A DNA stretch of 64,000 nt. Source: Myxococcota bacterium (GTDB lineage Bacteria > Myxococcota_A > Polyangia > HGW-17). Shown here in pieces: positions 1-62,869 of this stretch. The position numbers and the translations under genes were made by a program. Every line of letters starts with the position of its first letter. Positions within the stretch are counted from its first letter, which is position 1. Under the pieces are notes generated by a model. That model had not been told where the DNA came from. It saw only the letters and a list, made by a program, of their open reading frames with translations, and did not search any database. The stretch is taken from NCBI GenBank assembly GCA_018821305.1, contig JAHJMN010000146.1, positions 1 to 64,000 on the forward strand. Direction: 5' to 3'.

Positions 1-53
1 CATTATGATTGCAAGCTCTGAATCCAGACGCTCTTTGTACTTGGCGAGGTTAT

Positions 54-204
54 TTCGTGTTCTGAAAGTCAATTTTTGTCAAAATTGAGCATGTTTAAGA
101 AAACATGCTATTCAAAACACTACTTCACTTTTCAGGTCTTAGTTGTTACTGTCCTGCAGTTAAATCTGGAATTAACTTTTGTAATTTTTTTACAGGACAG
201 TAAC
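54..204 (+). repeat. Family B structured repeat, copy B1
   Basis: TTTCGTGTTCTGAAAGTCAATTTTTGTCAAAATTGAGCATGTTTAAGAAAACATGCTATTCAAAACAC...GTTACTGTCCTG(145-156)...CAGGACAGTAAC(193-204); matches 24707-24859 (reverse) and 37780-37932. Confidence 0.85.
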
Positions 205-1999: not shown

Positions 2000-2188
2000 A
2001 GGATAGCTCCTTTAAAATAATCATCCGAAAATACCGGAAATAAAACTGAATTCATCAAATCTGAGCAAACAAAGCTGTCTGGATACCCATTTAAATGCAC
2101 GAATCCGGAAATGTGCTTTATTTTAATGATAATTTATAGGTTTTTGCAACAGGAAAATAAAGGATATTCTAAACAGTTCATATCCTGT

Positions 2189-2300
2189 AGTTCGCTTTGC
2201 AAAGGATTTTATTATTAATCCTAACAGGCTACTATCAGTAAATTCAACACTTTTGGGGCATTGTCCTGAGGGAAAAATCAGGGAAACTTTGAAAAAAGTT
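2189..2300 (+). repeat. Family A repeat, degenerate copy A1
   Basis: TTCGCTTTGCAAAGGATTTTATTATTAATCCTAACAGGCTACTATCAGTAAATTCAACACTTTTGGGGCATTGTCCTGAG aligns with 13096-13178. Confidence 0.65.
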
Positions 2301-6469: not shown

Positions 6470-8659
6470 TTATGGTTTTCTCCCGTTATAAGGGTGAAAG
6501 TTGCCATATTCATCGTAATAGCCCTGACTATAATATTGCTCATCGCCAGCATTTGTATTGTCCTGGCCGTAATAGGCATTGTATTCTGACTGGGATAGTG
6601 GATACCAACGGCCATCCTCACCGTAGTAACCCTGCTGTTGGGATTGATCGTAGGAATACCACTGGCCATCATCTGCATAATAACCCTGTGGCTGTTGTTG
6701 GGATTGATCGTAGGAATACCACTGCCCATCTTCCCCGTAATAACCCTGAGGTTGTTGCTGAGATTGGTAAGCGCCGGAATTATTCTGATTGTACTGCTGC
6801 TGTTGTCCCTGTTGCTGATATGGCCCGGAGCTATTTTGATTGTACTGTTGCTGTTGTCCCTGTTGCTGAGATTGGTAAGCGCCGGAATTATTCTGATTGT
6901 ACTGCTGTTGTCCCTGTTGCTGATATGGCCCGGAAGGATATTGTTGCCTTGACTGGTCATATGAATACCACTGACCATCATCCGCATAGTAGCCGCTGGC
7001 CTGATTGTATGGATACCACTGGCCATCATCTGCATAATAACCCTGTGGCTGTTGCTGGGACTGGTCATATGAATACCACTCACCGCTGTGAGGATAAAAC
7101 TCCGGTTGAGAATTGAACTGATTGTTTCCGTATCCGAAACCGTCTGTAAGTTGCGAGTTATCTTCTGCAATGAAGGAATTATGGTCAAGGTAGTTTGCAG
7201 GATAATTATTATTATTATACTCAGAGTTGAATGTGGGCTGATAATTATTGTAATCTTTGAATACTTCGGATGATTCCGTAAGAATTTCCCCTTCCCCTTC
7301 ATCTAAAACCACTTTCAATTCAAGGGATTTGGAATTTCGCTGCTGAGTTTCCGTCATTATTTCGCGGTCAAAAGTGCCACTGACTTGGACACGATCTGCA
7401 CCAAGTGAGCCAGCTTCTTTAGCACTGCGAAGGTTGGACGTAGCAACCTTTGATTTTGTTCCGGGGCGGCCAGGTTTTTGAGGGATTCTTTCCGCTGGCA
7501 TATCAGAAAGACTGTAAATATCAGTTTTTCCAGAAGAATCTTCACTGATTTCACTTATTTCTTCAATGTCGTCATCATCGAGGAGATCATCTACGTCAAT
7601 AACCTCCGATACCGAACTTCCGCTGCTTCCTTCTTCTTCTCCTACGGCAGCAGATGGATACTTATCAAAATCCTCAAAATTAATATTTGAGTACTTTTTA
7701 CGTTTTTCCCAGATTTCCTCGGCATCTTTTTTAAAGTATTCCAACAGGAACTTCTGAAGTTTGGAAGTATTCCACCAATCACCCATCTTGTAGGATATAT
7801 GGGTAAGATCGCTTCCCAGTTCTTCCGCATGGGAATATCGTTTATCACGGTCAAAAGCCAAAGCTTTCATAACAATAGTAACAAGTTCCGGAGAAAGATC
7901 TGGCCGGATATCACCTATGGATGGCCAGTCCCCGGATACAATTCGTCGGAGGTTGTCCATATCGTTGGGTTCATCAAATAGAAGTTTTCCGGCGAGAAGT
8001 TCCCACAAAACGACACCAAGGGAAAAAATATCACTTCGATTGTCAATGTCTTTGCCCTGGAGCTGTTCTGGAGTCATGTAGCCGAATTTACCCTTGACGA
8101 TGCCTGCCTGTGTCTTAGTGGCCCGCTGGGTGGCCTTTGCGATGCCGAAATCGATTAGTTTAACGGCGCCTTCAAAGGAAACGAGAATATTCGCTGGAGT
8201 AATGTCCCGGTGTACAATGTTTAGAGGTTCGCCATTTCGGCCTTTGAGGGAATGGGCATAGTCCATTCCGTCGCATACTTTTGCAATCATGTGAAGTGCG
8301 GCACCGACGGGCAACTGTGTCTTGTTGTCCCACATGTGTTTTTCGATGCCTTTGAGACTGAGACCGGCTATGTACTCCATAACCTGGTAGAAATCTTCAC
8401 CGATTCGTCCGAAATCGTAAACCTGACAAATATTTGCATGTTGAAGACCTGAAGCGATGTGGGCTTCGTCTTTGAACATAGTGACGAAACTTTCATCTTC
8501 ACAGATGTGTGGCAGTATCTTTTTAATGGCAACGGTTTTTTGAAAACCCTCAACACCGAAGTGTTTGGCCAAAAACACTTCCGCCATTCCGCCTGTACTT
8601 ATCCTTTCAAGCAGAAGATATTTGCCGAATCTGGCAGGATACGAAGTTCTAAGACTAAT
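6470..8659 (-). CDS. Ser/Thr protein kinase with C-terminal Q/N/Y-rich tandem-repeat domain (5' end uncertain)
   Basis: IVHRDITPANILVSFEGAVKLIDFGIAKA, GYMTPEQLQG kinase motifs; glycine loop (GKYLLLERISTGGMAEVFLAKH) lies upstream of the track ATG at 8587. Confidence 0.85.
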   Translation of the reverse strand: MSLRTSYPARFGKYLLLERISTGGMAEVFLAKHFGVEGFQKTVAIKKILPHICEDESFVTMFKDEAHIASGLQHANICQVYDFGRIGEDFYQVMEYIAGLSLKGIEKHMWDNKTQLPVGAALHMIAKVCDGMDYAHSLKGRNGEPLNIVHRDITPANILVSFEGAVKLIDFGIAKATQRATKTQAGIVKGKFGYMTPEQLQGKDIDNRSDIFSLGVVLWELLAGKLLFDEPNDMDNLRRIVSGDWPSIGDIRPDLSPELVTIVMKALAFDRDKRYSHAEELGSDLTHISYKMGDWWNTSKLQKFLLEYFKKDAEEIWEKRKKYSNINFEDFDKYPSAAVGEEEGSSGSSVSEVIDVDDLLDDDDIEEISEISEDSSGKTDIYSLSDMPAERIPQKPGRPGTKSKVATSNLRSAKEAGSLGADRVQVSGTFDREIMTETQQRNSKSLELKVVLDEGEGEILTESSEVFKDYNNYQPTFNSEYNNNNYPANYLDHNSFIAEDNSQLTDGFGYGNNQFNSQPEFYPHSGEWYSYDQSQQQPQGYYADDGQWYPYNQASGYYADDGQWYSYDQSRQQYPSGPYQQQGQQQYNQNNSGAYQSQQQGQQQQYNQNSSGPYQQQGQQQQYNQNNSGAYQSQQQPQGYYGEDGQWYSYDQSQQQPQGYYADDGQWYSYDQSQQQGYYGEDGRWYPLSQSEYNAYYGQDNTNAGDEQYYSQGYYDEYGNFHPYNGRKP

Positions 8660-13083: not shown

Positions 13084-13225
13084 GTTCGTGTCCGGAAATT
13101 CGCTTCGTGAAGAATTTTATTAAAAATTCTATCCGGCCACTAGTAATATTTTCAACACCTTGCGGTTACTGTCCTGAGCAAAAATTGGGCGAAAAATTTG
13201 ATTTATTGTATTTCAGGACAGTAAC
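13084..13225 (+). repeat. Family A structured repeat, copy A2
   Basis: GTTCGTGTCCGGAAATTCGCTTCGTGAAGAATTTTATTAAAAATTCTATCCGGCCACTAGTAATATTTTCAACACCTTGCG-GTTACTGTCCTGA(13165-13177)...TCAGGACAGTAAC(13213-13225). Confidence 0.9.
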
Positions 13226-22860: not shown

Positions 22861-23030
22861 CATGTCCGGAAACTTTGATTATTTTCAACCGTTTCGCCAT
22901 GCGAAATCGGATGAAGTACTTTATGGAAAATCCTATCCGGCCACTAGTAATATTTTCAGCGTCTTATAGTCTGTATCCTGAATTAAAATTTCGGAAAAAT
23001 CCAACTATTCCCAGAATAGAGACTGCATGG
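22861..23030 (+). repeat. Family A repeat, divergent copy A3
   Basis: ATGTCCGGAAACTTTG...AATCCTATCCGGCCACTAGTAATATTTTCAGCGTCTTATAGTCTGTATCCTG...CAGAATAGAGACTG. Confidence 0.75.
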
Positions 23031-23112
23031 TTAGCGTTTCAACCGCTTATATTATCTTCATATTTTTAGAAACTTCAACTTACTTCACAATAAAAAAGTA
23101 CTTTTATAAGTT

Positions 23113-23260
23113 GTTTGTGTCCGGAAATTAGCTTCATGAAGAATTTAATAAATAATTATATCCGGCCACTAGTAATATTTTCAGCATCTCGCAGCGTATA
23201 TCCGGCCTTAAAAATTTGATGAAAAACTGGGTTTTCCTAATTTCCGGAAAGACACTAAAC
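23113..23260 (+). repeat. Family A repeat, copy A4
   Basis: GTTTGTGTCCGGAAATTAGCTTCATGAAGAATTT...ATCCGGCCACTAGTAATATTTTCAGCATCTCGCAG...TTTCCGGAAAGACACTAAAC. Confidence 0.8.
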
Positions 23261-24706: not shown

Positions 24707-24859
24707 GTTACTGTCCTGAAATACGACATTTCGAAGCTAGCTACGAAATTCAACACAGGACATTAAGAATGAAGACTTTGAAATTATTGTAGTGTTATGA
24801 ATAGCATGTTTTCCTAAACATGCTCAATTTTTACAAAAATTGAATTTCAGAACACGAAC
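24707..24859 (-). repeat. Family B structured repeat, copy B2
   Basis: Reverse complement GTTCGTGTTCTGAAATTCAATTTTTGTAAAAATTGAGCATGTTTAGGAAAACATGCTATTCATAACAC...TTAATGTCCTG...CAGGACAGTAAC; aligns with B1 and B3. Confidence 0.9.
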
Positions 24860-37779: not shown

Positions 37780-37932
37780 GATCGTGTCCTGAATTTCAAT
37801 TTTTATCAAAATTGAGCATGTTTACGAAATCATGCTATTCAGAACACTGTAATAATTACAAAGTCTTCATTCTTAATGTCCTGTGTTAAATTAAGTCGTT
37901 AACTTGAAAAAATAGTATTACAGGACATTAAC
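37780..37932 (+). repeat. Family B structured repeat, copy B3, with a solo right terminus 7 nt upstream (37761-37773)
   Basis: ATCGTGTCCTGAATTTCAATTTTTATCAAAATTGAGCATGTTTACGAAATCATGCTATTCAGAACAC...TTAATGTCCTG(37873-37883)...CAGGACATTAA(37921-37931). Confidence 0.9.
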
Positions 37933-40328: not shown

Positions 40329-40675
40329 CTATACCCAATGCTGGTCGGTTAGTGAACTTCCGAGTAAATTAGTCAATAAATACAATCTTGTAAAACAATT
40401 ACAGGCAGACAGGAATTCAGGAAAACAGGGGTCAGGAGCAAGGATCGAAATTTAAAAAGTGAATATTTGCTTTCAACCTTTGTAATTTTCCATTGATATT
40501 GAATGGTTAACCGCTGATCCTGATCCTGTTTGCCTGACTACCCGAGTCCCTGTTAAAAAATTACAGGTAGACAGTGAATCAGTAGCAGGAACAGGACAAT
40601 CAACTCTTTCCTGAAGATTTTCTTTAGAATAACTCACAATCGTATTACTCAGGAAGCGGTCTAACCAAAATCTGA
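40329..40675 (+). repeat. Family C repeat, copy C2
   Basis: ACCCAATGCTGGTCGGTTAG...TCAGGAAAACAGGGGTCAGGAGC...CAGTAGCAGGAACAGGACAATCAACTCTTTCCTGAAGATTTTCTTTAGAATAACTCACAATCGTATTACTCAGGAAGCGGTCTAACC. Confidence 0.8.
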
Positions 40676-41487: not shown

Positions 41488-41799
41488 AAAAATCCACTGG
41501 TCTTTTAATAATATCTATCAAATCAATAGTTTTACATAAATATAGAGAAAACACAGGAACTTAATATTAAAAAAAAATTAGATTATTTGTTACGTATGTT
41601 GAGTTTCAGATACGAACTGCCTTGAAAATCCTCTAAATTAATGGCAAGTTATGGCACTGAATCGCCTGTCCGGTAAAGACCCTCAAGGTAACTCACTGGC
41701 TTTCGATTCTTTATTTTTTAAGAATTGACGTTCAGTATTTCAGGTATTTCTACTTTCTACCCGGGGGGTTAACTGTTTTCCTGAACTACTGGGTTGTCA

Positions 41800-41935
41800 A
41801 CATTCGGGGTCTTTTGTGAATTTATTAAAAATTCTATTCGGCCACTACTAATATTTTCCGTATCTCTTAGTCTCTATCCGGACTATAAAGATGCAGAAAA
41901 CAGTGTTTTTTCGAATTTCCGGATAGAGATTAAAC
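41800..41935 (+). repeat. Family A repeat, copy A5, directly upstream of glyQ
   Basis: GAATTTATTAAAAATTCTATTCGGCCACTACTAATATTTTCCG; right-half stem TTAGTCTCTATCCGG(41867-41881)/CCGGATAGAGATTAA(41919-41933). Confidence 0.8.
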
Positions 41936-58429: not shown

Positions 58430-58810
58430 TTAACAGGGGAGTCAGGAAGTCAGGAAAACAGGATCAGGCTCAGGTCATAAACATTCAATATCAAAGCATA
58501 ATTACAAATGGCAGGATGAAAACAAGTACTTTTCCCGTTTCGATCCTTTTATTCCGAGAGCGGTCTAGACCGCTTCCTGATTAATACGATTGTGACTCGT
58601 TTAAAAAAAATGCTTCAGGAAAGACCCCTGTTTTCCTGTTCCTGCTACTGATTTCCTGGTTACCTGAAATATTTTAACAGGGACTCAGGAAGTCAGGAAA
58701 ACAGCGACAGGCTCAGGTCATAAACATCCAATATCAATGTAAAATTACAAAGACTGGAAGAATATATTCACTGTTCTACTCTCGATCCTTTTATTCCGAG
58801 AGCGGTCTAG
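58430..58810 (+). repeat. Family C repeats in tandem/inverted array, copies C3a and C3b
   Basis: CAGGAAGTCAGGAAAACAGGATCAGGCTCAGGTCATAAACATTCAATATCAA and again at 58685; TTTATTCCGAGAGCGGTCTAG at both ends; AGCGGTCTAGACCGCT palindrome at the junction. Confidence 0.85.
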
Positions 58811-58892
58811 CAATATTTACAGCACCTTGCGGTTACTGTCTTGAATAATAAACTGACGAAAAATTTGATTTCTTGTATTTCAGGACAGTAAC
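58811..58892 (+). repeat. Family A repeat, right half only, copy A6, fused to C3b
   Basis: CAATATTTACAGCACCTTGCGGTTACTGTCTTGA...TCAGGACAGTAAC. Confidence 0.85.
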
Positions 58893-62728: not shown

Positions 62729-62869
62729 GTTCGTGTCCGGAAATTCGCTTCGCGAAGAATTTTATTAAAAATTCTATCCGGCCACTATAATAAATTCAAC
62801 ACCTTGCGGTTACTGTCCTGAGCAAAAATCGGGCGAAAAATTTGAATTTCGGTATTTCAGGACAGTAAC
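62729..62869 (+). repeat. Family A structured repeat, copy A7
   Basis: GTTCGTGTCCGGAAATTCGCTTCGCGAAGAATTTTATTAAAAATTCTATCCGGCCACTATAATAAATTCAACACCTTGCGGTTACTGTCCTGA...TCAGGACAGTAAC; flanked by GAATTC on both sides. Confidence 0.92.

Follow-up and report, generated by a model that had tools for sequence, protein, structure and literature searches.

In most bacterial MITEs, the 5' and 3' ends pair with each other to form one long stem (PMC2229807). CIR elements are the exception among bacterial repeats and consist of two arms and a linker, and RUP elements have been proposed to be mobilised in trans by IS630-Spn1, an insertion sequence with the same ends (PMC2229807). Transcripts of bacterial MITEs form stable stem-loops, some of which are cut by RNase III (PMC10969869). 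Compensatory changes have also been described in REPINs, which are dispersed, hairpin-forming elements (PMC3116915).

Here, we describe two repeat families, A and B, from a Myxococcota bacterium (Polyangia; assembly GCA_018821305.1). The window that was analysed is a stretch of 64,000 nucleotides, positions 1 to 64,000 of the forward strand of contig JAHJMN010000146.1 (C170 below). Similar to Correia/NEMIS, RUP and ERIC elements, A and B copies are shorter than 200 bp, carry inverted ends (TIRs), are flanked by a target duplication, lie mainly between genes and contain no conserved ORF. Unlike in most of those elements, the ends of A and B pair internally, into a three-way junction (3WJ) on the left and a hairpin on the right, and the target duplication is 6 bp long. 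Two independently folded arms joined by a linker are likewise found in the CIR elements of Caulobacter and Brucella (PMC2229807). In contrast to CIR, which has no long TIR and for which the duplication is unknown according to the same source, A and B show clear TIRs and duplications of 6 bp and can be linked to a candidate transposase; the 3WJ of their left arm sets them further apart. We classed A and B as MITEs and, because of their fold, as a new variant of these elements. A first-pass annotation of the window had drawn attention to the junction; it overlooked that the left arm of the junction forms the TIR of a transposable element, that this element is flanked by 6-bp target duplications, and that a matching transposase is present in the genome.

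Ends, target duplications and distribution of the two families

A search of the genome to which the window belongs (5.22 Mb in 216 contigs) returned more than 40 matches for each family, among the matches listed. Copies were collected from stretches totalling 1.49 Mb, which were partly picked for holding copies and yielded 112 copies of A and B together; since copies are over-represented in these stretches, densities derived from them are not genome averages. Full copies of A and B are 142 bp and 153 bp long, respectively, with inverted ends GTTCGTGTCCTG...CAGGACAGTAAC. The left and right TIRs matched at 10 of 12 positions in 58 of the 112 copies and at 9 or more positions in 92. The end motif, GTTMVTGTCCTG, was present in 965 exact copies in the genome, as compared to 5 for a reversed control pattern. 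Extending the motif by two bases gave a 14-mer with 720 occurrences in this genome, whereas each of 58 relatives, one of them from the same genus, had no more than one (0-1). The family B repeat was not found in any of the 38 relatives searched for it, nor was any copy found in viral contigs (searched with the B motif), plasmids (B) or phages (A).

The sequences on either side of the copies were 84.6% identical when compared at a length of 6 and 25-33% identical at lengths of 4, 5, 7, 8 and 9. Of 103 copies, 54 were flanked by a perfect pair of 6-mers; shuffling the flanks between copies gave 4.9 such pairs on average and 13 at most. The consensus of this 6-bp target duplication is TANNTA. Head-to-tail copies were common and had a single shared duplication between them, as in a group of three at C61:18501-18948. 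Only 3 of the 112 copies overlapped an ORF of at least 100 aa, though such ORFs hold 85% of the sequence. Six-frame translation of the A and B consensus met stops in most frames, the few open frames being shorter than 50 codons, and revealed no resemblance to a conserved protein in any of the six frames. With TIRs, a duplication of fixed length, no conserved coding sequence, a high and mainly intergenic copy number and a partner with matching ends (see below), A and B are two MITE families with a few hundred copies per genome.

The copies in the window, along with the parts of the one that opens it (B1), are listed in Table 1. B1 lacks an intact 6-bp duplication (AGGTTA versus TTGGTA).

Table 1. 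Family A and B copies in the 64,000-nucleotide window and the folded parts of copy B1
Feature	Position	Strand	Remarks
B1, family B MITE, older copy	53..204	+	first TIR base mutated (T for G)
B1 3WJ closing arm, 5' side, GTGTTCTGAA	57..66	+	also within left TIR
B1 3WJ hairpin 1, CAATTTTTGTCAAAATTG	70..87	+	
B1 3WJ hairpin 2, GCATGTTTAAGAAAACATGC	89..108	+	
B1 3WJ closing arm, 3' side, TTCAAAACAC	111..120	+	one mismatch against 5' arm
B1 linker joining the two fold domains	121..144	+	from full-length fold
B1 right hairpin	145..204	+	arm GTTACTGTCCTG (145-156) pairs with right TIR CAGGACAGTAAC (193-204); core variable
Diverged family A copy	2170..2287	+	69-71% to reference copy
Family A MITE, subfamily A2	13084..13225	+	GTGTCCGGAA arm
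Diverged family A fragment	22912..22999	+	75%
Diverged family A copy	23107..23224	+	73-87%
B2, family B MITE	24707..24859	-	
B3, family B MITE	37780..37932	+	
Degenerate family A copy	41783..41900	+	63-68%
Family A remnant	58775..58892	+	right half, with intact right hairpin (58832-58892); another repeat replaces left half
Family A MITE	62729..62869	+	exact 6-bp target duplication GAATTC on both sides

Shorter and longer relatives of these elements were also found. A 61-bp element at C131:26285-26345 consists of the right hairpin only and is flanked by a perfect TAATTA duplication, and an 89-bp element at C4:62494-62582, which carries an extra module of two hairpins, has a perfect 6-bp duplication as well. 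These two elements suggest that movement does not strictly depend on the 3WJ. The extra two-hairpin module recurs in longer A-derived elements of 206 bp (C146:9224-9429) and 245 bp (C4:96203-96447), each with a perfect 6-bp duplication. We considered whether right hairpins of about 60 bp form independent transposons and rejected the idea, as most solo hairpins belong to diverged A or B copies, of which they form the right half, and only one of them is a true 61-bp unit with a duplication. A candidate composite transposon at C145:5650-7803, in which an A and a B copy enclose an aminotransferase gene, has TACTTA on its outer sides and inner flanks that differ. It is probably due to chance, because TACTTA is a common target and this is the single such case.

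Two other features of the window were observed. A dispersed repeat at 469-644, 40440-40663 and 58437-58801, present in both orientations, has CAGGTCATAAACATYCAATATCAA and CAGGAAAACAG tracts and AGACCGCT ends, and is probably a different small element. On the minus strand, positions 6470-8587 hold a kinase-like ORF with a C-terminal Q/Y-rich repeat, QGYYADDGQWYSYDQSQQQ, which forms a low-complexity, prion-like tail.

Folding and conservation of pairing

In the left halves of A and B copies, the lowest-energy fold was a 3WJ on both strands, with RNA as well as DNA parameters. This result was obtained for the three B copies of the window, the B consensus and the consensuses of three A subfamilies. 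Compared to dinucleotide shuffles, the energies had z values between -3.6 and -7.2. No more than 2 of 500 shuffles matched the stability of the left halves, and a 3WJ topology of any kind arose in 2-12% of them. RNAalifold recovered the identical junction on both strands from 38 A and 29 B left halves, with a consensus energy that none of 200 column shuffles attained. Thus, the junction that the first-pass annotation had placed at 54-120 is present there with its arms and two hairpins, and the consensus folding that it had proposed as a check returned the topology common to both families, with closing arms that covary in family A. The fully paired B arms that it had quoted do not occur in any copy of the window, as they combine the left arm of B1 and B2 with the right arm of B3. 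We conclude that the 3WJ of the left halves is real as a predicted fold.

The A subfamilies A1, A2 and A3 (26, 21 and 12 copies) differed in their left halves at paired sites only. Six sites that differ between A1 and A2 formed three compensated pairs, and four that differ between A1 and A3 formed two. The probabilities of these outcomes under random placement of the sites were near 1e-6 and 5e-5, respectively, and serve as a guide rather than a formal test because the subfamilies represent few events. Single copies contributed a few extra compensated pairs. In family B, there were 0.57 private substitutions per paired site versus 4.29 per unpaired site, the latter value being dominated by two loop positions. 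The closing arms of B formed 9 of 10 Watson-Crick pairs in 44 of 49 copies, around a C-A mismatch that was itself kept in 47 of the 49. Those of A formed 8 of 9 pairs in 42 of 59 copies, with a conserved T-C mismatch (kept in 51 of 59).

When folded at full length, copies formed two domains, the left 3WJ and a right hairpin, separated by an unpaired linker of approximately 22-24 nt. The right hairpin is closed by an internal arm, GTTACTGTCCTG or CTTAATGTCCTG, which pairs with the right TIR. Each end of the MITE is hence paired with an internal partner of its own, the left end in the 3WJ and the right end in the hairpin. Of 107 copies, 97 had a right TIR that agreed at two diagnostic bases with the internal arm, whereas only 2 had one that agreed with the left TIR. 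Paired changes were observed in this hairpin too (AC/AC versus AA/AA), so that compensatory changes preserving one fold are present in the left half and in the right hairpin. The description of the repeat as a 3WJ accordingly covers its left half, the right half being a separate hairpin. The two families had been thought to have little primary identity and one architecture. The shared architecture was borne out; outside the hairpins, their unrelatedness was not, as their ends, linker and right half can be aligned. Five copies (L031, L039, L041, L042 and L046) were chimeric, with a B left module and an A-type right module, indicating that halves have been exchanged between the families.

It is conceivable that the pairing is a by-product of mutation and not of selection: one arm could be rewritten from the other by hairpin-templated repair (quasipalindrome correction), or by recombination of the inverted partners. 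Such a process would fit the paired changes of the right hairpin and the modular chimeras, which show that copies exchange parts. Simple templated correction would be expected to erase the C-A and T-C mismatches, which persist in most B and A copies, unless the left TIR is under constraint, and we consider this explanation rather unlikely. Throughout the expansion of the elements, the pairing has been maintained.

A probable ISNCY-type insertion sequence with the same ends

Contig C216 opens with the gene of the sole PF01609 transposase in the genome, after which come the right end TATTTCAGGACAGTAAC and a TATTTA target. The left end of the same insertion sequence, GTTCGTGTCCTGAAATT, is carried by eight contig ends, and both ends are as in the MITEs. 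On these contig ends, the left side reads GTTCGTGTCCTGAAATTAAG... and is usually preceded directly by a TA..TA target, frequently with a MITE adjoining it. The contig that contains the window is among them, its far end carrying this sequence at C170:85172-85249. An asymmetry between the ends, with GTTCGTG on the left and CAGTAAC on the right, is common to the MITEs and the insertion sequence. The assembly has collapsed the insertion sequence at contig ends, so that it is nowhere contained whole in one contig; summing the contig-end pieces would give a full length of about 1.68 kb. Its left end does not fold into a 3WJ. Many contigs (for example C102, C109 and C200, as well as C170 at position 85249) end within a MITE or the insertion sequence, which makes the repeats the probable cause of these breaks.

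The C216 transposase was closest to the NCBI ISNCY model NF033593 (E 1.8e-87), with a score of 293.9 bits that lies below the curated equivalog cut-off of 325. The protein could be aligned over its length with ISRm17-like members of ISNCY, including the catalytic D, D and E residues, and these members have related ends (GTnCnnGTCCnnAAA) and TA..TA duplications of 6-7 bp. It differs from known members in that it is approximately 27-31% identical to the annotated ISNCY proteins. Annotated ISNCY elements on Sinorhizobium and Marinobacter plasmids have GTGCCCGTCCATAAAC-like ends and the duplications TAGCTA, TAGCCTA and TAGGCTA. Such 6-7 bp TA..TA duplications were found in three of the four annotated relatives examined; for the fourth, a Microvirga element, only CTAG was found at the ends. 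We take these relatives to belong, probably, to the ISDol1 group. In the literature searched, no MITE linked to an ISNCY-type transposase was described.

These observations suggest, with a probability of roughly nine in ten, that A and B are non-autonomous transposons mobilised in trans by the ISNCY-type DDE transposase of the same genome. The arrangement resembles that of RUP and IS630-Spn1, in which an insertion sequence with matching ends acts as the trans mobiliser (PMC2229807). For A and B, we infer movement in trans from the ends and the target duplications, because only the outermost ~17 bases are common to the MITEs and the insertion sequence. The transposase would bind these ~17-bp ends, excise or copy the MITE unit and join it to a 6-bp staggered TANNTA target. 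This target may often be the duplication beside an earlier copy, which would produce the head-to-tail arrays.

A different origin, as REPIN-like or IS200/IS605-like elements that move as single-stranded hairpins by means of a Y1 transposase (RAYT or TnpA), was also weighed. A and B are palindromic, intergenic and of high copy number, they fold as single strands, and like REPINs they are dispersed, hairpin-forming and marked by compensatory changes (PMC3116915). In contrast to REPINs, which are moved by tyrosine (Y1) transposases, A and B have TIRs and 6-bp duplications. To our knowledge, Y1 transposition makes no exact target duplications. We rejected this origin as highly improbable, given the exact 6-bp duplications and the presence in this genome of a DDE insertion sequence whose ends are identical.

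Possible roles of the fold

The first-pass annotation had suggested that the junction might act as an ncRNA. No Rfam family matched, and no sigma-70-like promoter was found within positions 1-710, around B1. The orientation of the copies relative to co-directional genes was not significantly biased (14:19 for A and 8:16 for B; P = 0.49 and 0.15, respectively), a bias of 9:2 seen for B in a first sample having weakened to 16:8 with more data. There was no excess of wobble pairs over A-C mismatches on either strand, with 9 G-T and 15 A-C single-sided changes on the plus strand. The ncRNA suggestion was thus not supported, and we rejected a stand-alone ncRNA gene given the lack of an Rfam match, a promoter and a significant orientation bias.

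In a broader form of this idea, the 3WJ and hairpin would constitute a structured RNA, either a small RNA or a processing or stability element in read-through transcripts, which was dispersed by transposition and whose pairing is under RNA selection. The compensated changes and conserved stems are consistent with it, as is the tendency of known bacterial MITE transcripts to form stable stem-loops (PMC10969869). The predicted B RNA was also more stable on the minus strand than on the plus strand (-26.5 versus -21.0 kcal/mol), since the minus strand pairs fully, with a G-U pair replacing the C-A mismatch; this gain is due to one fixed position. The compensatory changes do not distinguish between RNA and single-stranded DNA. 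With no Rfam match, no promoter at B1, no significant orientation bias and no wobble asymmetry, we regard selection on a structured RNA as unlikely.

The transposition part of our explanation is strongly supported, and what follows on the function of the fold is inference. On the same four grounds, we ranked a role at the DNA level first and a role in RNA second. Most likely, the predicted fold acts at the DNA level, where it might supply extra or subterminal end sequences, or serve as a foldback that prevents end-to-end pairing. The cruciform that the first-pass annotation had named as its other option, or a single-stranded form of the DNA, may have such a role. Alternatively, the fold may affect read-through mRNA. 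It is possible, though only tentatively proposed, that the entire fold of 3WJ, linker and hairpin has been selected for a function in the element. The transposase or the replication machinery might act on it as a DNA foldback, or it might be an RNA module that helps host genes to tolerate insertions. The two left-module families would then share one topology through convergence or through constraint.

The A and B elements probably account for many of the contig breaks of this assembly. Their pairing is preserved within each end and not between the ends, whereas bacterial MITEs are usually pictured as a single long hairpin that joins both ends. Their few hundred copies, well-defined ends, clean target duplications of 6 bp and candidate transposase make them a useful natural data set in which to ask whether the internal folds of MITEs are selected or accidental.
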